Shown: piece after piece, positions 2,560 to 23,251 of the stretch | Layout: every line of letters starts with the position of its first letter | Numbering within the stretch: position 1 is the first letter of the stretch | DNA from: Syntrophorhabdaceae bacterium | GTDB lineage: Bacteria > Desulfobacterota > Syntrophorhabdia > Syntrophorhabdales > Syntrophorhabdaceae | Length of the DNA: 64,000 nt | Assembly: GCA_035541755.1 (NCBI GenBank) | Contig: DATKMQ010000100.1 | Location: forward strand, 1 to 64,000 | Direction of reading: 5' to 3' | Notes under the pieces: model-generated | The model's input: only the letters and a program-made list of their open reading frames with translations | Databases searched by the model: none | Told to the model about the DNA's origin: nothing | Program-made: the position numbers and the translations under genes

Positions 2560-3798
2560 TTACCCATGTCGTTTCTCCGCGATAAATAGTCCGCAGATAA
2601 CGGCGATCATGGCCATGGCCGCGGACAGGACAAAGGCTAACTGGTAACTGCCGGTGAGGTCAAAGATGAGGCCGGTTGCGTAGGCCCAAAATCCACCGCC
2701 CAGGAAATGAACGGTATTGACCACGCCGGCGAGGATACCGATGAATCCGAAACCGTAGAGGCGCCCCATGAGCATGGGTGCGAGCGGCGCGGTAACGAGC
2801 TGTGTGAATCCGAAGAGAAGGGCGTAGACATACAGAGCCTGCGCCGTCTTGTACTTGAGCACAAAGACGTAGAGCGCAAACCGCAAGAAGAATGTCACAA
2901 TGATAGGGACCTTTGAACCGATCCTGTCGGCAACGGGTCCGGTAAGGATTACGCCAACCATGCTCATGAGGCCGAATAATCCCATCATCTTTCCGGCGGT
3001 AAATGAGGGAATCCCGATATCCGTAGCGAAATTGATAAAATGCGTGGTTGCGAAGAAGTCGCCGCTGCCGCAGATGAACATTACCACGAGAAAAAGCCAG
3101 AAGGAGCGGGTGCGCGCTGCGGCTCTCAGTCCCATACTTGCTGGCTGCCCGGAAACTGGAGCTGTTCCGGCTGCCCCCTCGGGCTTCTTCGGCACCGCGC
3201 CGAATGGCGCCATCTTGAGGTGGTGCGGATCGCCCTTCATCACAAATAGTGCGATGAGGCAGTCTATCACGAGTATAGTGAGTCCAAGGCAAAGGAAAGC
3301 GGACCTCCACCCGTATGAAGACGCGCCGAGACTCAATGCGGGGATGAGGATGAATGCCCCCATGGAGCTTCCTGCAAGGGAAATGCTGAGCGCCAGTCCG
3401 CGCCTTTTCTCAAACCATTTACTTACGACTGTAGACACCAGGGGAACGCCGAGCCCCGCCGGACCGGCCGCAGCCATAAGCCCATAGGAAAAGAAGAACT
3501 GGCCGAATGTATGCACCAAAGATGTGAGAACGAACCCCATGGCAAGAAGAAGCGCGGAGATTATGATGATCCATTTCGGCCCGAAGCGGTCATAGAGTCT
3601 GCCCACGACCGTGAGCGCAATGGCGAAGACGATCATGTTCATCATAAATACGAAAGAAACAGCGCTTCTGCTCCAGCCGAATTCCCTGATGATGGGTTTG
3701 AATAATACCCCGAGGGCATAGGACGCGCCCGAATTGAAAAAGAGCATAACAAAGGAGGCGGTGACTATGTACCACGGCCAGTATGTTGTGTTTCTCAA
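2560..3798 (-). CDS. MFS transporter, oxalate/formate or monocarboxylate antiporter type
   Basis: Twelve hydrophobic segments in 412 residues with a central hydrophilic loop at about 190-225 give the classic two-times-six MFS layout. The cytoplasmic loop after helix 2 holds motif A (GRLYDRFGPKW, near residue 62). The N-terminus, with WPWYIV and a loop FGWSRS after helix 1, is characteristic of the OFA/monocarboxylate transporter branch, which carries small organic acids across the inner membrane. It stands alone between the AOR remnant and the divergent aldo/keto reductase. The substrate cannot be read from sequence; an organic acid is the best guess. Confidence 0.8.
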   Translation of the reverse strand: MRNTTYWPWYIVTASFVMLFFNSGASYALGVLFKPIIREFGWSRSAVSFVFMMNMIVFAIALTVVGRLYDRFGPKWIIIISALLLAMGFVLTSLVHTFGQFFFSYGLMAAAGPAGLGVPLVSTVVSKWFEKRRGLALSISLAGSSMGAFILIPALSLGASSYGWRSAFLCLGLTILVIDCLIALFVMKGDPHHLKMAPFGAVPKKPEGAAGTAPVSGQPASMGLRAAARTRSFWLFLVVMFICGSGDFFATTHFINFATDIGIPSFTAGKMMGLFGLMSMVGVILTGPVADRIGSKVPIIVTFFLRFALYVFVLKYKTAQALYVYALLFGFTQLVTAPLAPMLMGRLYGFGFIGILAGVVNTVHFLGGGFWAYATGLIFDLTGSYQLAFVLSAAMAMIAVICGLFIAEKRHG

Positions 3799-12413: not shown

Positions 12414-12442
12414 TTGACAAAGTAAAATAGTTTACATATATT
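12414..12442 (+). promoter_or_regulatory. Promoter of the DUF4258/MqsA-like/Lon-RNase HIII operon, with operator
   Basis: TTGACA (12414-12419) and TATATT (12437-12442) with exactly 17 bp between them form a near-consensus sigma70 promoter. Inside the spacer is an inverted repeat GTAAA-ATAG-TTTAC (12422-12435), well placed as the operator for the HTH antitoxin encoded second in the operon. Autorepression by an MqsA-type protein is known for the family; for this site it is inference. Confidence 0.7.
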
Positions 12443-12489: not shown

Positions 12490-12783
12490 ATGACGATAGA
12501 CGAAATACGAGATTTAGTATTAGAAGGCAGGTACAACTATTCGCAAAAGATAAGAGAATCGATCGAAGATGGCTGGTACGGCGAGGAAGATCTGGAACAA
12601 TGCATACTTACGGGGTGTATCTCGAAAACAGAAAGGGATGAATTGAAGACCTCGGTGGATGGGAAGAAGCACGTCATTCTTGGAAGAGATACCTGTGGGT
12701 GCCCGTTCTATACTTGCGGGAAGGCTATAAAGGACGAAGAAGGCAAACTCTATTTCTTCATAACCGGGCATAAAACAAAATGA
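12490..12783 (+). CDS. DUF4258-type, RelE-like small protein (putative toxin)
   Basis: A 97-residue protein opening with MTIDEIRDLVLEGRYNYSQK and the later ISKTERDE...VILGRDTCGCPFY pattern of DUF4258. Such proteins are compact RelE-like folds usually encoded just upstream of YgiT/MqsA-type zinc-finger antitoxins, exactly as here. The usual invariant His after the first helix is not obvious, so ribonuclease activity is uncertain. The motif CGCPFYTCGK holds three cysteines, unusual for the family. Its stop overlaps the next ATG (ATGA). It is first gene after a strong promoter with an inverted-repeat operator. It may be a toxin, or a ligand or adaptor subunit of the downstream system. Confidence 0.65.
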   Translation: MTIDEIRDLVLEGRYNYSQKIRESIEDGWYGEEDLEQCILTGCISKTERDELKTSVDGKKHVILGRDTCGCPFYTCGKAIKDEEGKLYFFITGHKTK

Positions 12784-13646
12784 GGATGTCAAACATGTTT
12801 AATTATAAGTGCGAAGAATGTGGAAAAGGTGTGGTAAGGGAGACGGGTCTGGAGGATTACAAAACGAAGATCAAGGGGCGTCCATTTGTGGTTGAGAAAG
12901 CAATAGTCGGCATTTGTGACCGTTGTGGGGCGAGGCATTTCGACGCAAGTGAGACCAAGCGTTGGGAAAGACTCTACAACAAAAAATTAGAGGCGAATAA
13001 ACTGTATTTGTCGGCGGAAGAAATAGCAGAAGTTAGGAGGGACTTGGTTCTTTCAATGGAGAGTTTTGCCTCTTTGCTTGGTTGTACCCGTCAGTCGATC
13101 TACAATTGGGAAAAGAAGGATCGAGAAACACCCCAATCTCGCATGGCTGACCTCCTAATCAAGCTGGTGAGGGACTCGGCCAAGGATGGCAGAATTAATG
13201 TGCTCGAATTCTTGGTTGAAGAAGCTGCAAACATTGGGACTCCTGTGCGGGTCGGGAATAATGTGAACGCCCAAAGCGATCCAATTAGGCTTGAAATAAA
13301 AAGAGTCCCTCGACTGTCTCTCGAGGAATCCAACACCGACATGCCGCTTGCAGCCTCCGATGAACAAGGCACGGTGGTTGTTGCGGAATCAAATGACAAA
13401 ACGTTTCGCGGCTTTCTTCGCTACGACTTTTCGACCGCCAACTTATGGTTGCAAATACTGCATGATGCGCTCTGCTTGAAAGCTATCAACGTCACAATAG
13501 CGACCAATGACCAAAATCAGATAGATAGAAAGAACGTTGCAATCGAAGACAATGCGATTCCCCTTATCTTGGAGACGCGATACAGGGAGCGCGACATTCG
13601 GGCCATAATTATGGAACCCTTGGCTGTTCAGGCAAAGAAGTGCTGA
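12780..13646 (+). CDS. MqsA/YgiT-like zinc-finger HTH antitoxin with long C-terminal extension
   Basis: Residues ~5-55 form a YgiT-type zinc ribbon with paired CxxC motifs (CEEC and CDRC). Residues ~75-125 are an XRE helix-turn-helix (SFASLLGCTRQSIYNWEK), as in MqsA antitoxins. MqsA proteins are about 130 residues; this one is 288, with an additional ~160-residue C-terminal region that I cannot assign and that is predicted largely soluble. It probably binds the GTAAA/TTTAC operator upstream and neutralises the preceding DUF4258 protein. Start at 12780 assumes ATGA coupling; ATGs at 12786 and 12795 are also possible. The extra domain may link regulation to the Lon-RNase HIII protein encoded directly after it. 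Confidence 0.75.
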   Translation: MRMSNMFNYKCEECGKGVVRETGLEDYKTKIKGRPFVVEKAIVGICDRCGARHFDASETKRWERLYNKKLEANKLYLSAEEIAEVRRDLVLSMESFASLLGCTRQSIYNWEKKDRETPQSRMADLLIKLVRDSAKDGRINVLEFLVEEAANIGTPVRVGNNVNAQSDPIRLEIKRVPRLSLEESNTDMPLAASDEQGTVVVAESNDKTFRGFLRYDFSTANLWLQILHDALCLKAINVTIATNDQNQIDRKNVAIEDNAIPLILETRYRERDIRAIIMEPLAVQAKKC

Positions 13647-13648
13647 AG

Positions 13649-15961
13649 ATGGATATTAGGAAGGTTCGAAGGCTAAAGTTACTTCTGAGAGAAGTCCAAA
13701 TCATGAGAGACGGGAGCGAGAGGCTAGAACCGACATTCGACGAAATATGTAATTTGGTCTTCACTGACAATGCCTTTATGGAATTCTGGGATGAAGAACT
13801 GCTTAACGGGTTGCGAGAATTGTTTCAGCTAAAGTCACCCAGCGTCAGTGTATATGGCGAACAATTGAGATTTCTAGCAGACAGAAGAGAATTCGTGCAG
13901 ACGGCGAATGATATTTTCTTCTCTTTGCTTGATAGTAAATCAACTTCTACCGACATCGTTGACCGTCTCTCACGCCTTCTTGGTATATCCCATCCGAACC
14001 CTTCGACCGCAATCGATCCTTCCCGTATAGCGGATATCAGAGTAAGCACCTCCTCGCTCTCAGAAAAGGTAAGAACGTTTGTCGACTACCTTTCAACGGA
14101 AACGCCCTTGGTAATGGGTGCTGTAACAAATGATCTGTACCGCATAGCGGAGACGATGAAGGCTCAGGAAACCCCGGGGAAAGTAAACGCCATGCTGGTT
14201 ACGAGCGATAAAGTTGTCGGCGTTCTCATTCCTTTGTCAATCCGCTTGTCTCCAGGAGAGGGCAAGACCATCTGCTTAGTATCGGTCGCAGACCGTTTTA
14301 CGGCTGCCATAGACCGAGCACGGCGCGCTATGGAGAGCAAAGGTTTTCTTGCTTGCGGCCAAGATGTGGATTGCTCGCTGGAAATCACTTCGGCCGAATA
14401 CAGCGGAGACTCTATTGCATTGGCTGCAGCAGTTGGAATTTACTCCGCGGCTTCCAAAGAATGCTTCGATCCCTTCACTGCCTTTACTGGGAACATCAAT
14501 CTTGATGGCTCTATTTTTAAGATTCTACCCGTTTCAGGAATAAATGCCAAACTCTCGGCGGCCGTCAAATCCGGCTGCCGTCGGGTTTTTCTACCGGCGG
14601 AGAATCGGTCTGATGTTGGACCCGAATTCCACGAGCGACTTCAAATACTCTATGTCACTGACATTATCGACGTTCTCCTAAAGCTACAGCTTAACCCTGC
14701 ACCGGTATCTGGTGAATCATTACAAGTTAGGAAACTGAACTTCTTGCGAGCATATTGTCAAAATAGAGGCTGGGACCTTTCTGAAGGTGAGCAAATCCAA
14801 GACGCTTTACAGTTCACCGTCTCGCCGGCCCATCCACCCGAGATCAAGATCAATCTTTACTATAGCGGAACACATACGCCGAAGACCAACGACGGAGAAT
14901 TCTTCCACGATCTGTTAGACGGACTTCAAGGCCTCGACCAACCGAAAATTGCCACCCGGGATGTCAACAAGACGTTTCTGATAAAGGACGTTGATTTAAG
15001 AAGGCAGATAAGAGAACGGCTGGAGCAAATGAGACCCGACAGCATGATAGAACAGTACTGCGACTACAGCTTTCGCTTTCAGAGCGCGGGAGAAAGACTT
15101 GTCGCGAAACAGTATGCCAAAGGAACCTTGCAGTTACAGGGCCGGGCAGGCGATCTCTACAAGCGGGTTCTTGACGTCATCATACCCCCTTACACTATGA
15201 AACACCCAAACGCCACGTTGCTGATCGACGAGTACTTAGACGATTCGGCAGTCGTAGAAGCCAAGGCCAGCGTCAAAGCTACCGGGTTGGTCGTCCGTGA
15301 TATTTTGTATCCACATATCGGCACGGACGAATCAGGAAAAGGCGACTACTTCGGGCCCCTTGTTGTCGCCGGTGTCTGGGTCGACGAAAAGACAGCAGAG
15401 GAATTGGAGGCCCTCGGAGCACGAGATTCCAAGCTTCTGTCGGACAAGCGGTGCAAAGAACTGGCAGCTAAAATCCGTGAGATTTGCCAGGGTAAGTTCG
15501 AAGAGATAGAGTTGGTGCCCGAGCGATATAATGATCTATATGACCAGTTCGCCAAAGAGCGAAAGAATTTAAACCACCTCCTCGCGTGGGGCCATGCTCG
15601 GGCGATAGAGAGTTTGGCTGAGAAACTACCGTGTGATTGTGCGATCGCCGATCAATTCGGCGACGAGAAATATATCCTGTCTAAGCTAATGGCAAAGGGT
15701 AAGAAGCTGGAGTTGATTCAAACCCCAAAGGGTGAGAGATACGTGGCAGTAGCAGCCGCCTCTATCTTGGCTAGGGATCGCTTCTTATCACGCATGGAGA
15801 AGTTTAACCTGAAGTATGGATTGTTGTTGCCCAAAGGGGCATCAGATTTGGTTGTGTCTGTCGCTCGGTCTATCGTCGGGAAGACAGGGCCTCAGGAACT
15901 ACGAAACGTTGCAAAACTGCATCACAGAACCACTCAAAGAGTCATCGAAAGAAAACAATGA
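13649..15961 (+). CDS. Lon-type (S16) protease domain fused to RNase HIII
   Basis: A 770-residue protein with an unfamiliar architecture. Residues ~1-170 are unassigned and helical. Residues ~175-345 resemble the Lon proteolytic domain, including TGNINLDGSIFKILPVSG and KLSAAVKSGCRRVFLP. The candidate dyad is Ser255 (GDS) and Lys301 (INAKLSAA), 46 residues apart, close to the spacing in Lon; no AAA+ motor is present. Residues ~440-540 resemble the TBP-like substrate-binding domain of RNase HIII (KGTLQLQGRAGDLY). Residues ~555-770 are an RNase HIII catalytic domain: DESGKGDYFGP with Asp560-Glu561, DSK at 593, Asp668 (ADQF), and Glu696 before the VAVAAASILAR block. It should cut RNA:DNA hybrids or RNA, coupled to proteolysis. 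A GTG start at 13640 is an alternative. It starts 2 bases after the MqsA-like gene and overlaps the TPR gene. Confidence 0.8.
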   Translation: MDIRKVRRLKLLLREVQIMRDGSERLEPTFDEICNLVFTDNAFMEFWDEELLNGLRELFQLKSPSVSVYGEQLRFLADRREFVQTANDIFFSLLDSKSTSTDIVDRLSRLLGISHPNPSTAIDPSRIADIRVSTSSLSEKVRTFVDYLSTETPLVMGAVTNDLYRIAETMKAQETPGKVNAMLVTSDKVVGVLIPLSIRLSPGEGKTICLVSVADRFTAAIDRARRAMESKGFLACGQDVDCSLEITSAEYSGDSIALAAAVGIYSAASKECFDPFTAFTGNINLDGSIFKILPVSGINAKLSAAVKSGCRRVFLPAENRSDVGPEFHERLQILYVTDIIDVLLKLQLNPAPVSGESLQVRKLNFLRAYCQNRGWDLSEGEQIQDALQFTVSPAHPPEIKINLYYSGTHTPKTNDGEFFHDLLDGLQGLDQPKIATRDVNKTFLIKDVDLRRQIRERLEQMRPDSMIEQYCDYSFRFQSAGERLVAKQYAKGTLQLQGRAGDLYKRVLDVIIPPYTMKHPNATLLIDEYLDDSAVVEAKASVKATGLVVRDILYPHIGTDESGKGDYFGPLVVAGVWVDEKTAEELEALGARDSKLLSDKRCKELAAKIREICQGKFEEIELVPERYNDLYDQFAKERKNLNHLLAWGHARAIESLAEKLPCDCAIADQFGDEKYILSKLMAKGKKLELIQTPKGERYVAVAAASILARDRFLSRMEKFNLKYGLLLPKGASDLVVSVARSIVGKTGPQELRNVAKLHHRTTQRVIERKQ

Positions 15962-17247
15962 CGGACGAACGGTTAGCTTCACAATCGGACGAAACTGTAG
16001 TCCTACAGAGAGCCCGGAAACTTATGGACGAAAAGAAAGTGAGAGATGCGTTGTCACTCCTGCGCTCTGCTCATCAGCAAAATTCGCTGTCCGTCCATGG
16101 ATTGGAAATCCTCGCTTTCTGTTACTCCAAGGCGAAGGAGTACCGAAAGGCTATCTCCATTTATCAGCAACTATCGGCCAAAGATCCGAGCAAGGCAAAA
16201 TGGTTCTATTATCTTGGATACCAATACGGATCCTTGATGCAGGTAGATGAAGCAATCAAGAACTATCGAAAGGCTCTCTATTTATATCCCAAATGGATGA
16301 AGCCTTTTCCGGAACTTGTAAGGCTCCTGAAAGAATCCGGAGATAGGGAAGAATCTATTAAACTCTGTCGGAAAGGGATACAGCTGTACAAAGAACTGAT
16401 TCCTGATTTGCAGAGAAAGTATTCGGACTGCTATGCAGAATTATGTCTATTCGCAGCTCAAGCGCTTGTCACAATTGATAGAGCGGGCGCGGACGCTCTC
16501 ATGCAAGAATACATCACGCTTCGCACAGACGATCTGAACTCTTTATATGTATACGGAAGTTACCTGCTTGATAGCGGAAGGCCGGAAGAAGCGATTGAGT
16601 ACTACCGTCGGGCTCAAGCGCGTGGCCTTACCAAGGAGTATGTCCCTCACAAGATGGCGAAGGCATGGTTGATGCTGGGGAATACTGATCAAGCCTTGAA
16701 GACATACGAGACTATTCCACTCCAGAAAAGAACGGGGTACATTCTCAATGGAATGGGTAAATGTTTCGCAAAAAAGGGCAACAGCCAGGATGCCTTGCTG
16801 TACTTTTACAGGGCTGCGAAGTCTCAGGCCAAATGGTATCACTACCGTGATGTCGGCCTTGCCTTAGCTGATCTCGGCGCAACAATTCAGGCAATTGGGT
16901 TTTTGGGACGGAGTAATGAAATGTACCGACAGGAGACAGGCGACGATTTCACAAAGCTTGTCATGAAAATTGAAGAGCTACGACAGGTGCCTAATACGAC
17001 TCATATAAATCTCAGCGAATTTGATCCCGCTGTTCCGATCTCTAGTTGCGGGAGTGTTGTAGAGTACAATCCGAAAAGAGGATACGGCTTTATAAGGGAC
17101 GACAAGGACAACGGAAAGCTCTTCTTTCACGTTAGTGAAGTAAAAGACCGCATGGAACCTCGGATTGGGCTGCGAGTAAAGTTTGTAAGGGAACACGGTG
17201 AAAAGGGGCCGGTAGCCCGGAAAGTCCGACCAGGTAAGCAGCTGTAA
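15958..17247 (+). CDS. TPR-repeat protein with C-terminal cold-shock domain
   Basis: A 429-residue soluble protein. Residues ~15-320 are TPR-like helical hairpins (for example GYQYGSLMQVDEAIKNYRKALYLYP split over two helices, and LDSGRPEEAIEYYRRAQARG). Residues ~360-425 form a cold-shock/OB domain: GSVVEYNPKRGYGFI contains the RNP1-like element and KLFFHVSEV the RNP2-like element, both used to bind single-stranded RNA or DNA. The ATG overlaps the stop of the Lon-RNase HIII gene (ATGA), so the two are translationally coupled. The TPR part probably scaffolds the nuclease or protease and the CSD presents nucleic acid. I know of no standard family with this pairing in this context. Confidence 0.75.
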   Translation: MTDERLASQSDETVVLQRARKLMDEKKVRDALSLLRSAHQQNSLSVHGLEILAFCYSKAKEYRKAISIYQQLSAKDPSKAKWFYYLGYQYGSLMQVDEAIKNYRKALYLYPKWMKPFPELVRLLKESGDREESIKLCRKGIQLYKELIPDLQRKYSDCYAELCLFAAQALVTIDRAGADALMQEYITLRTDDLNSLYVYGSYLLDSGRPEEAIEYYRRAQARGLTKEYVPHKMAKAWLMLGNTDQALKTYETIPLQKRTGYILNGMGKCFAKKGNSQDALLYFYRAAKSQAKWYHYRDVGLALADLGATIQAIGFLGRSNEMYRQETGDDFTKLVMKIEELRQVPNTTHINLSEFDPAVPISSCGSVVEYNPKRGYGFIRDDKDNGKLFFHVSEVKDRMEPRIGLRVKFVREHGEKGPVARKVRPGKQL

Positions 17248-17314: not shown

Positions 17315-17983
17315 ATGGACAGCGTGAATAAGGCTATCGCAGATATTAAGTCACAGTTGCAATGGCCTGTGGAGTGCAAAATAAGCGATCTAGAAAACCA
17401 GGCACCCAGTTGGTCCCTGAGTTATACGCATAGAATTTCTTATCCCAAGAACACATGTCTGCTCGACATACTGCACGAACACCTGCATGCGCTGGACCGC
17501 GAACGCTTGCCAGCTCAGTATTCAGACGGGATTCCACCTATTGATAACTGCCCATGGGGATTCGAAGTGCGCGTCAATTACTATTTCAATGTTGTTCGTG
17601 ACTGGACCGTCAACTTCCGAATAGCGACATTATGCCCCGACAGTGCCCGTGAGTGGATAGAACAAGATTACCATGATAAACTGAACATAATTCAGCAGGC
17701 TAGAACCCCGGAGGACAAGTTGATCGTTGGGCTTGCTTTTGCAGAATACGCTAAGTTTCTTGGTAAGTCGGACATCCCAACCATTGAAGACAAAGACATT
17801 CAGCGCGTCTTCGAGGTTATAATTGATGTCCCTACTGAACCAAATTTAGACGAACTTCATATCGCAGTTGATGCTCTGGCATCGATATTTGACGAGTTTC
17901 GAGTCCAGAAGTGTATTGGAACCAAGGAAATATGGTACGTCATTCCAAATCTGTCTCCGGCTTGCGTTCAACCGAAAAAGTAG
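17315..17983 (+). CDS. Putative HExxH zinc metallopeptidase, unknown family
   Basis: A 222-residue soluble protein of no family I recognise. It contains HEHLH at residues 54-58, a perfect HExxH zinc-binding motif within a predicted helix (LLDILHEHLHAL). Downstream, the FEVRVNYYFNVVRDW segment (~80 residues later) could provide a third ligand (Glu) as in gluzincins. It follows the TPR/CSD gene in the same direction after 67 bases and is probably the last member of the cluster. The small gap holds a weak TAAGG/CCTTA inverted repeat. The metallopeptidase role is inferred from the motif only; a chance HExxH cannot be excluded. Confidence 0.55.
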   Translation: MDSVNKAIADIKSQLQWPVECKISDLENQAPSWSLSYTHRISYPKNTCLLDILHEHLHALDRERLPAQYSDGIPPIDNCPWGFEVRVNYYFNVVRDWTVNFRIATLCPDSAREWIEQDYHDKLNIIQQARTPEDKLIVGLAFAEYAKFLGKSDIPTIEDKDIQRVFEVIIDVPTEPNLDELHIAVDALASIFDEFRVQKCIGTKEIWYVIPNLSPACVQPKK

Positions 17984-18446: not shown

Positions 18447-19040
18447 TTACTCTTGACCGTCCGGGGAACTAGAATCCCCATCGCTAGCGTGATTGTGGCT
18501 TTCTCCCAATCGTTGGTAACCTCTGAAGTTGGCAATTTTAGTGATTATTTGATGGACGAGTGAATCTCTACTCAACCTGCCGACGGAACTAATGCCCTGT
18601 ATGAGGGCTACCGCTCTCAATTGCTTGGTCGAATAACGGTTGGTTTGTAGTCCTGATCTTATCTCATCGACCGGAAGCTCCTGGAGTTTATTGAGAATTG
18701 ATCTTGCCGCGTCAAGCTCTTCCTCGCGAGAACCAACGTCAAGAGGCTTCCTCGATGGCCGGGCTCGAAAGCCAAGAACCCTCGAGAGCATAGGTCTTTC
18801 TTGCGTGTTCTCTAGGCGATCTCTTAATCTCTCAATAGATTCCTTTGTCGCAAGAACATCTTCCTGCGCTGGTAAACGCTCAACGACCTCCTTTAGATCG
18901 TTGAGGAACGTAAGCACAACAGACAGATGTTCTGTAATCTCACTTTTCTCTTTTTCGGTAGGCAGAGAACGAAGCAACTTGTCTATATCTGACAAAAACA
19001 CTTTAATGCCACGATTGCTAGGTTCCTTCTTTTTTTGCAT
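18447..19040 (-). CDS. Coiled-coil/SAP-like protein, partner of the adjacent ParA ATPase
   Basis: A 197-residue charged protein. Residues ~15-80 are strongly helical with heptad-like spacing (IDKLLRSLPTEKEKSEITEH, then KESIERLRDRLENTQ), suggesting a coiled coil. Residues ~115-175 (PVDEIRSGLQ...YSTKQLRAVA...LVHQIITKI) look like a SAP-type helix-extended-helix, a common DNA-binding fold. The last 20 residues are polar and disordered (HNHASDGDSSSPDGQE). It follows the ParA gene after 5 bases, so it is probably the cargo or ParB-like partner of that ATPase. No formal family is recognised. Confidence 0.6.
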   Translation of the reverse strand: MQKKKEPSNRGIKVFLSDIDKLLRSLPTEKEKSEITEHLSVVLTFLNDLKEVVERLPAQEDVLATKESIERLRDRLENTQERPMLSRVLGFRARPSRKPLDVGSREEELDAARSILNKLQELPVDEIRSGLQTNRYSTKQLRAVALIQGISSVGRLSRDSLVHQIITKIANFRGYQRLGESHNHASDGDSSSPDGQE

Positions 19041-19045
19041 TTGCT

Positions 19046-19984
19046 CTAAAACCTCCCTAAGAACTCCTGTGTTATTTTCTGATACTCTCGTTTATTGCCG
19101 GCCCGCCTTGCATTCTGACTACCATGTAGCCAAACTGGCAAATTGTTTTCTGCTGCCTCGCTGTACCCTATTAGTTCAGTCGTATACACTGGAAAAACAT
19201 AGCTCCCATTTAGAAGGTTCCTAACTTCTTCCATTTTACTAAAATGAGTGGCGGTAAGCAAGCTGCCGCCGATTCTAACCTTAACGAAAATGACGCCTCC
19301 AAGCTGTGCTATCTTGAGTGGATCTTTCGTGGAGCCTGCAAACGTCTGGGCTGAGCCTAGTAACTCACCTATTCGCTTGACTTTACTCTGTAGGATTCTC
19401 AATCCAATCGTTGAAAGATGATCTGGTATAGCAGAAATCACATACCAAGCGCTTGCTGCTAGGGCGTTCTGTGTCATCAAGTAAAGATTGGGCGGACAAT
19501 CGATCAGAACATAATCATACTTATCTTCGACTTCTTGGATAGCACTATTTAGAAAAAGTCTTTCTCTAAGATACTCTTTGGATGATTGTCTAAGTGCTTC
19601 AAGGCTTGGAAAACTCCCAGAAACTTGGCCTCCACTAAGGTCTTCTCCAAGGAGATCTATGTCGCAAGGAATAAGATCGAGAGTATTGATTTTTAACGAA
19701 CCAGATCCAACGGGCGATCTCCAAATATATCGTTTTGTATCGATAGCTTTCCTATTCAAGTAATTTTGATACATGGTCGCAATCGTGCCCTTCTTCTTCT
19801 TAACGTCTTCCCAGTCCTCGATTGTTGCACAGAGAAAGGTAAGATTCGTTTGCGGATCAATGTCGATAAGAAGTACTCTCTTGCCATGGTGCTGTGCAAG
19901 CGAACATCCGATATGGTATGTGGTTGTTGTTTTACCCACACCGCCCTTGTAATTAATGAATGAGATAACTTTGGCTCTCTGCAT
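19046..19984 (-). CDS. ParA/Soj-family ATPase
   Basis: A 312-residue P-loop ATPase with deviant Walker A KGGVGKTT at residues 13-20, Walker A' LLIDIDPQTNLTF and Walker B YDYVLIDCPP. These ATPases form DNA-bound dimers that position plasmids, chromosomes or protein cargos. The long insertion between Walker A' and B (~45-130) and the C-terminal VYTTELIGYSEAAENNLPVW are typical of the plasmid/phage-type ParA clade rather than chromosomal Soj. It is first gene of a two-gene leftward operon, facing the HExxH gene, and no ParB or parS sites are evident. It could be a segregation relic of an integrated element or the ATPase of a defence or positioning module. Confidence 0.85.
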   Translation of the reverse strand: MQRAKVISFINYKGGVGKTTTTYHIGCSLAQHHGKRVLLIDIDPQTNLTFLCATIEDWEDVKKKKGTIATMYQNYLNRKAIDTKRYIWRSPVGSGSLKINTLDLIPCDIDLLGEDLSGGQVSGSFPSLEALRQSSKEYLRERLFLNSAIQEVEDKYDYVLIDCPPNLYLMTQNALAASAWYVISAIPDHLSTIGLRILQSKVKRIGELLGSAQTFAGSTKDPLKIAQLGGVIFVKVRIGGSLLTATHFSKMEEVRNLLNGSYVFPVYTTELIGYSEAAENNLPVWLHGSQNARRAGNKREYQKITQEFLGRF

Positions 19985-22607: not shown

Positions 22608-22949
22608 GTGCAGGCGTTTCCTTACGAACTGGAGTACTATATTACAGAGGATGGAAGGAGGCCTTTCAAAGAATGGCTGGACGGAATGAAAGACATCAAT
22701 GCGCGGGCAAAAATACGTATCAGGCTGGACCACGTGAGACTTGGCAGTCTCGGAGATAGTCGTTCTGTCGGAGACGGTGTTCAGGAATTAAGAATCAACT
22801 ATGGGCCTGGTTATCGTGCGTATTTTGCACATGAAGCAAACCGTATCATCCTTCTTCTCTTGGGCGGAGACAAAAAGACCCAACGGAATGACATTGTGAA
22901 GGCAAAGAGTTTTTTGCGTGACCTTAAAAGAAGGAGAACGTCATCATGA
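22608..22949 (+). CDS. RelE/HigB-type toxin (phage-derived Gp49-like)
   Basis: 113 residues with the HigB/Gp49-like pattern: ELEYYITEDGRRPFKEWLD, INARAKIRIRLDHVRLG, VQELRINYGPGYRAYFA and IILLLLGGDKKTQRNDI. Toxins of this group cut mRNA on the ribosome. The conserved Arg/Lys-rich surface and the KKTQ..DI..A segment before the last helix are present, so it looks intact. The GTG start is inferred from homologous length and the lack of any other start before residue 26. Its stop overlaps the antitoxin ATG (ATGA), giving the reversed toxin-antitoxin gene order usual for HigBA. Confidence 0.88.
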   Translation: MQAFPYELEYYITEDGRRPFKEWLDGMKDINARAKIRIRLDHVRLGSLGDSRSVGDGVQELRINYGPGYRAYFAHEANRIILLLLGGDKKTQRNDIVKAKSFLRDLKRRRTSS

Positions 22950-23251
22950 GTAGAAAGTCCTCGTATCAGAAAGATCTTATCGAATCGCTCAAAGATCCTC
23001 GTGAAGCGGCGGCGTATCTTAACGCCGCTATCGAAGAAAATGACCGCGCCATCTTTCTTCTCGCTCTGAGAAACGTGGCAAAAGCGCATGGCGGAATGGC
23101 TTCTATTGCCGAAAAAGCGAAATTGAACCGCGAGAGCCTGTACCGAATGCTATCGAAAAAGGGTAATCCGGAAATCGAGAGCCTCTACAGCCTTCTGAAT
23201 GCCATGGGATTACGATTGGCTATAGAAACAGGCGAATCCCAGGCTGCGTAA
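22946..23251 (+). CDS. HigA-type antitoxin with HTH domain
   Basis: 101 residues matching the 'probable addiction module antidote' family: an N-terminal DLIESLKDPREAAAYLNAAI helix pair, then an XRE-like helix-turn-helix around GGMASIAEKAKLNRESLYRM and the characteristic NPEIESLYSLLNAMGLRLAI end. It should bind the toxin and repress the shared promoter through the ATTGTAG/CTACAAT palindrome. It overlaps the toxin gene by 4 bases. Confidence 0.9.
   Translation: MSRKSSYQKDLIESLKDPREAAAYLNAAIEENDRAIFLLALRNVAKAHGGMASIAEKAKLNRESLYRMLSKKGNPEIESLYSLLNAMGLRLAIETGESQAA

Follow-up and report, generated by a model that had tools for sequence, protein, structure and literature searches.

A single open reading frame in the genome of a Syntrophorhabdaceae bacterium joins a motor-less Lon-type (S16) protease domain, a tandem module resembling RnlA NTD-NRD, and the catalytic domain of RNase HIII. 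The frame is the third gene of an operon that runs in the order small putative toxin, MqsA-like antitoxin, fusion protein and TPR-cold-shock protein. Counting the copy in the window (the 64,000-nucleotide stretch of contig DATKMQ010000100.1 analysed here), five full-length copies of the fusion were identified, in three phyla. We give an even chance to reading the operon as a protease-gated toxin-antitoxin system, in which the RnlA/RNase HIII part is the sensor and the antitoxin is the substrate. The parts are each already known; neither a Lon-RNase HIII protein nor such a four-gene operon was found in the open-access literature, in keeping with the statement of the first-pass annotation that it knew of no described protein joining these activities.

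Gene 3 (13649..15961, on the plus strand like all features of the operon described here) encodes 770 amino acids in an uninterrupted frame, as the first-pass annotation had reported; an alternative GTG start at 13640 would give a product of 773 residues. The first 170 residues (13649..14158) are predicted to be all-helical, with pLDDT mostly 70-88, and match neither Pfam nor any known family. The S16 domain (14174..14689) follows. Residues 252-344 match Lon_C (PF05362) with 37.6 bits against a cut-off of 21.1, the fold matches of this part include 1z0b and other Lon domains, and in an alignment with the solved structure of A. fulgidus LonB, Ser255 (codon 14411-14413) matches the serine of the GDS motif and Lys301 (codon 14549-14551) the catalytic lysine. 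No AAA+ motor was detected in Pfam and NCBIfam searches, and the protein is thus neither LonA nor LonB. The same searches detected no SAVED or CARF sensor, and a PADLOC match to CARF_LON covers the S16 part only. At the other end of the chain, the RNase HIII catalytic domain (15311..15946) matches RNase_HII (PF01351) over residues 557-761 with 98.3 bits (cut-off 25.8), and the fusion scores 180.2 bits against the rnhC (RNase HIII) equivalog TIGR00716 (cut-off 161.2). Asp560-Glu561 (15326-15331), Asp668 and Glu696 occupy the positions of the equivalent D-E, D and E in an alignment with the solved structure of Bst RNase HIII. These DEDE residues and the score above the curated cut-off are shared with ordinary RnhC; that enzyme, however, is a solo protein of ~220-330 residues, whereas here it makes up the C-terminal third of 770. 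Both catalytic assignments of the first-pass annotation are therefore upheld, including the Ser255-Lys301 dyad and Glu696, which it had offered as candidates, and the profile similarity to S16, whose absence would have spoken against it, is significant. An AlphaFold model of the whole fusion (5 sequences) was poor, with a pLDDT of 57, and domain contacts were not taken from it.

The fusion is also present in distantly related bacteria. Among 395 genomes of the host phylum, one other full-length copy was identified (G299/L003, 52% identity). A scan of 84,980 genomes gave five fusion records (L016 to L020), a count that is a lower bound because the pattern step of the scan was narrow. They come from a Thermodesulfovibrionales MAG (L016), a Deltaproteobacteria MAG (L017, the same copy as L003), a Syntrophaceae MAG (L018) and two Acidobacteria MAGs (L019 and L020). 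A search of 296 genomes from the phylum of L016 added G647/L053, and a search of 297 genomes from the phylum of the Acidobacteria copy returned that copy alone, which indicates that the system is rare. Identities of the full-length relatives G399/L016 and G400/L019 are 54% and 43%. Two further copies are damaged, one (G397) lacking RNase HIII and the other (L020) truncated by an IS. L019 and L020 are 99.6% identical across 3.9 kb; this near-identity reflects a recent transfer or overlapping bins, and the two are not independent. The first-pass annotation had suggested that other genomes be searched for the same fusion and its neighbors, and both were found, with the order of the operon conserved.

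The serine-lysine dyad is invariant in 7/7 copies, both damaged ones included, and the four RNase H residues (D560, E561, D668, E696) are invariant in all 5 copies that retain the domain. In a comparison of L016 with L053, dN/dS is below 0.4 in every domain of the fusion. The RNase HIII parts of these two copies are 99% identical, with a dS of 0.035, and dS over the rest of the fusion is 0.24-0.65; the nuclease domain alone thus appears to have undergone recent recombination. A tree of RNase HIII domains is compatible, weakly (71/76), with a single origin of the fusion. In G397 (L012/L018), RNase HIII and most of gene 4, with nearly all of its TPR repeats, have been deleted, and the operon retains the S16 dyad, the antitoxin gene and the toxin gene. 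This could mean that the G397 operon is in decay, or else that some copies can do without RNase HIII.

The phylum of G399 commonly carries an ordinary RNase HIII, which could favor viewing the protein as a housekeeping RNase HIII whose fusion is decorative, or else as a product of sequencing or assembly. The joining of two genes by error, a possibility that the first-pass annotation had itself raised, fails to account for a fusion that recurs full length in independent assemblies from three phyla and is under purifying selection, and we reject an assembly error or chimera. Each host tested carries another RNase HII-family gene, which leads us to reject the housekeeping role as well, and the fusion is rare and lies in a toxin-antitoxin operon. 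This explanation is largely refuted, and we consider it very improbable. An origin in phages or plasmids is likewise rejected: three scans of viral contigs and the phage and plasmid records gave solo RNase HIII or Lon only, with no full-length fusion, and plasmid searches with rnlA (of L004) and with gene 2 gave nothing. Among the phage records, that of the Microcystis 'phage' MaAM05 (L009, MW495066.1) carries aspS, dephospho-CoA kinase, gatA and rnhC, a stretch that looks bacterial.

Between the protease and the nuclease, residues ~356-530 (14714..15238) form a tandem pair of TBP-like domains. The TBP-like label given in the first-pass annotation stands in part: the region looks less like the single N-domain of an ordinary RNase HIII than like a pair in the middle of the chain, closest to RnlA NTD-NRD. 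The family profile of the fusion aligns with residues 6-168 of the RnlA of L004 at a probability of 96.5% (hhalign, E 7e-10). RnlA_toxin (PF15935) is listed in 5/5 fusion copies at a loose threshold, with a best value of 1.2e-5 and a value of 0.0016, under the family cut-off, for the window copy; DUF3378, the TBP-like N-terminal domain of RNase HIII, is found in 2/5 (best E 0.0049). A second, more distant RnlA (L060) gave no alignment with the module, and a search of the PDB with the RnlA-like pair returned chance antibody matches only. A 2013 paper (PMC3710099) pointed out a TBP-like domain that RNase HIII shares with some RNase LS proteins. The fusion system differs from RnlA-RnlB in several respects: Pfam finds in the fusion no C-terminal HEPN/Dmd-binding toxin domain of RnlA (PF19034 / PF18869), the operon contains no rnlB gene, the RNase H is RNase HIII and belongs to the same polypeptide, there is a Lon-type protease in addition, and a pair of the DUF4258/MqsA kind adjoins.

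The likeness to RnlA extends to a published association, both physical and functional, of an RNase H with the module and an antitoxin. In E. coli, RNase HI binds the NRD of RnlA, to which it recruits the antitoxin RnlB; it is needed both for the inhibition of RnlA by RnlB and for the activation of RnlA (PMC5308261). By analogy, the fusion might serve as an RNase H cofactor and bring the antitoxin to the toxin, with S16 as an assembly scaffold in the manner of BrxL and RadA and not a working protease. BrxL and RadA are indeed among the profile and fold matches of the fusion. The BrxL match is confined to the S16 part; the fusion lacks the AAA+ module and the operon contains no BREX gene. Against a purely structural S16 domain stands the Ser255/Lys301 pair, which is retained even in the two damaged copies and aligns with that of an active LonB. 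To our knowledge, RadA and BrxL lack a serine-lysine dyad. We regard a scaffolding role as unlikely.

Gene order is identical across the copies, with intergenic gaps of -14 to +50 bp. In the window the operon is preceded by a sigma-70-type promoter, TTGACA-17-TATATT (12414..12442; 11/12 consensus matches), and the promoter arrangement is the same in L016 and L053. Within its spacer lies the operator AGTAAAATAGTTTACA (12421..12436), whose family consensus is the palindrome TGTAAAATATTTTACA and for which 0.01 chance matches are expected in the window. The palindrome is found in the spacer of every copy whose antitoxin retains the helix-turn-helix (HTH) domain. Upstream of gene 1 there are two palindromes each in L016, L053, L019 and L020, one in the window, and two degenerate ones, at 3337 and 3361, in L018; there is none upstream of gene 1 in L003/L014, where the antitoxin has no recognised HTH. 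The operator is probably the binding site of the HTH of the gene 2 antitoxin. Given its position in the promoter of the operon, the fusion, too, is probably under antitoxin control.

Gene 1 (12490..12783) encodes a 97-residue putative toxin that weakly resembles DUF4258, with E values of 0.024-0.13, under the cut-off; its profile gave no match to solved structures. At the same position in G299/L003 is a BrnT-like gene (E 3.5e-5, under the curated cut-off). DUF4258-MqsA is a known toxin-antitoxin pairing (PMC11980606). The first 4 bp of gene 4 overlap the end of gene 3. Gene 4 (15958..17247) encodes 429 amino acids with TPR repeats (PF00515) and a C-terminal cold-shock domain (PF00313), and has a PADLOC match to CSD_V (E 3.4e-10). 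At L019:6050-6400 the cold-shock domain of gene 4 is in a different frame from the TPR part, by a frameshift that may be an assembly error or real.

Gene 2 (12780..13646) encodes an antitoxin of the MqsA/YgiT type, with a zinc finger and HTH (PF15731, 33.4 bits; TIGR03830, 63.9 bits), and its best fold match is MqsA (3gn5, E 3e-6). The zinc finger and HTH, the position of the toxin gene first, and the operator in the promoter are all as in MqsRA and DUF4258-MqsA. In contrast to those systems, an extra linker and C-terminal domain are attached to the antitoxin here, and the next genes of the operon are those for the protease-RNase HIII fusion and the TPR-cold-shock protein. The linker, residues 180-196 (13317..13367), is predicted to be disordered (AlphaFold pLDDT <50). 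Over residues 150-197 of 7 sequences, only Gly153 and a Leu-Ala-Ala (LAA) at residues 190-192 (13347-13355) are invariant, and the latter is a candidate cleavage or docking site. The domain that follows (13368..13643) is modeled by AlphaFold as seven beta strands. Among the 395 genomes of the host phylum, none but the two with the fusion has this domain. Both LAA and the C-terminal domain persist in G299/L003 despite the BrnT-like toxin and a different antitoxin head. From this conservation we infer that the linker and C-terminal domain are where the fusion docks and cuts, and the first-pass annotation, which had named the upstream antitoxin as a possible partner, gains support; LAA could instead be a docking or degradation motif rather than a cut site. 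The C-terminal domain showed no similarity to RnlB or to the anti-sigma protein of L008 (see below).

Two other roles for the protease may be considered. One, proposed in the first-pass annotation, is that RNase HIII is the effector, released or activated when the Lon domain cuts its own polypeptide or a bound partner. A protease and a nuclease, both apparently catalytically intact, do share one chain. However, the interval of ~200 residues that separates S16 from RNase HIII resembles folded RnlA-type domains and showed no recognisable conserved, disordered site for self-cleavage, and the conserved LAA and C-terminal domain of the antitoxin would be left unexplained. We know of no requirement for proteolytic activation in ordinary RNase HIII. 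Activation of the nuclease by self-cleavage is thus less well supported than a coupling of the protease to the antitoxin, and we think it improbable. The other is that the protease is a conventional turnover factor, constantly degrading the antitoxin or excess toxin in an ordinary stress or plasmid-type system, with no sensing of phages. Antitoxins are normally degraded by host proteases such as Lon, and the genes share one operon with an operator of the autorepressor type. Constant turnover leaves unexplained why a catalytically conserved RNase HIII and an RnlA-type module are attached and why a TPR-cold-shock partner of the RnlA style is present, and we assign it a low probability.

Several loci without the fusion combine similar parts. 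In L004/L015 (G194:C101), one operon with gaps of ~10 bp encodes RnlA, then RNase HIII, then a TPR protein whose S1/CSD-TOTE match is weak. This RnlA beside an RNase H echoes the published RnlA-RNase HI interaction. Consecutive genes in one orientation in L064 (G208:C27:34000-39385) encode hsdM, hsdS, a TPR(DUF7017)-cold-shock protein, RnlA and RnlB. In L062 (G219:C93), an RnlA that has HEPN is fused to an RNase HI that has a viroplasmin-type domain; fusions of this class have been described (PMC3710099). RNase H, TPR-cold-shock proteins and RnlA-type domains are thus associated in several combinations, and the accompaniment of some rnlA genes by TPR-cold-shock genes, a further likeness to the fusion operon, suggests that RnlA systems regularly have a TPR-cold-shock protein as a partner.

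The protease domain has relatives of another kind. In L008 (G361:C38), consecutive genes encode a sigma-like factor, a zf-HC2 anti-sigma factor and a Lon-CARF protein, the Lon domain of which aligns with the S16 domain of the fusion at a probability of 98.4% (E 5e-15). L008 looks like a CalpL-type system with CARF in place of the SAVED sensor. For CalpL, the activator is cA4 and the protein that is cut is an anti-sigma factor (PMC11417357). Judged by its sequence, the S16 domain of the fusion is related to the class used in CRISPR-linked signalling, and the protease-nuclease coupling and CalpL analogy put forward in the first-pass annotation are strengthened. As in CalpL-CalpT-CalpS and CARF-Lon, a motor-less S16 domain is joined to a nucleic-acid-related sensor, and the gene for an inhibitor protein that is the likely substrate (here, as a candidate, the antitoxin) adjoins. 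The fusion has RnlA/RNase HIII where those proteins have SAVED or CARF, and antitoxin and toxin take the place of the anti-sigma and sigma factors of CalpL; no CRISPR genes were seen in the fusion loci examined. The first-pass interpretation was right in part, and overlooked the RnlA relationship, the TPR-cold-shock gene, the operator and the C-terminal domain of the antitoxin.

The copies in G299, G397 and G647 adjoin restriction or other defence genes, and the Acidobacteria copies adjoin transposase-like and integrase-like genes. No restriction genes adjoin the window copy, which lies at the start of a stretch of lower GC content (43-51% over 12 to 21 kb, vs 55-58% before). Just 3' of the operon, at 17315-17983, is a 222-residue protein with no Pfam or NCBIfam match. 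The same low-GC stretch includes, on the minus strand at 18447-19984, a ParA-type ATPase beside a 197-residue protein of unknown family. At 22608-23251, a small protein resembling RelE/HigB precedes an XRE-type antitoxin (both recognised by eye); the two are probably an ordinary toxin-antitoxin pair.

In the protease-gated system that we propose, the MqsA-like antitoxin would at rest hold the small toxin and repress the operon through TGTAAAATATTTTACA, with its extra C-terminal domain docked on the fusion protein. The RnlA NTD/NRD-like and RNase HIII parts, aided by the gene 4 protein, would recognise abnormal nucleic acid, the likeliest ligand being an RNA-DNA hybrid from phage replication or transcription. 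Engagement of the ligand would switch on the Ser255-Lys301 protease, which would cut the antitoxin in the disordered LAA linker and so free the toxin, and RNase HIII would degrade the hybrid as well. In this reading, the four genes would probably serve in anti-phage defence by abortive infection.

In favor of protease gating we count the full-length recurrence of the fusion with invariant catalytic residues and low dN/dS, and the conserved gene order with loss of the operator along with the HTH. We also count the LAA and C-terminal domain, which are kept in G299, the domain being found only with the fusion among the 395 genomes and LAA lying in a linker predicted to be disordered. The CARF-Lon protein beside a sigma/anti-sigma pair and the RNase HI-RnlA precedent weigh on the same side, as do the operons combining RnlA, RNase H and TPR proteins, the flanking defence genes, and the second RNase HII-family gene of the hosts. 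Counted against it are the absence of RNase HIII from G397, the weak assignment of gene 1, the negative comparison with L060, the poor full-length model and the lack of restriction genes next to the window copy.

A bolder form of the proposal, which we advance tentatively and as the less probable of the two, is an immune or stress switch in which a nuclease-type hybrid sensor made of RnlA NTD/NRD and RNase HIII directly gates a Lon-type protease on the same chain. Interchangeable toxin-antitoxin pairs would then be activated by the cutting of a portable antitoxin tag, the LAA and C-terminal domain, and RNA-DNA hybrids would release the toxin with neither a second messenger nor an ATPase.

The operon joins three themes: the control of RnlA by RNase H, the use of motor-less Lon proteases in CRISPR signalling, and toxin-antitoxin pairs of the MqsA type. 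It offers a concrete test of how an RNase H controls a toxin, a question that the work on RnlA and RNase HI left open. If the proposal is correct, the protease of this toxin-antitoxin system is built in and gated by a stimulus, and the tag that it cuts can be transferred; if hybrid-gated cleavage is shown, there is a real chance that the operon represents a new kind of system.
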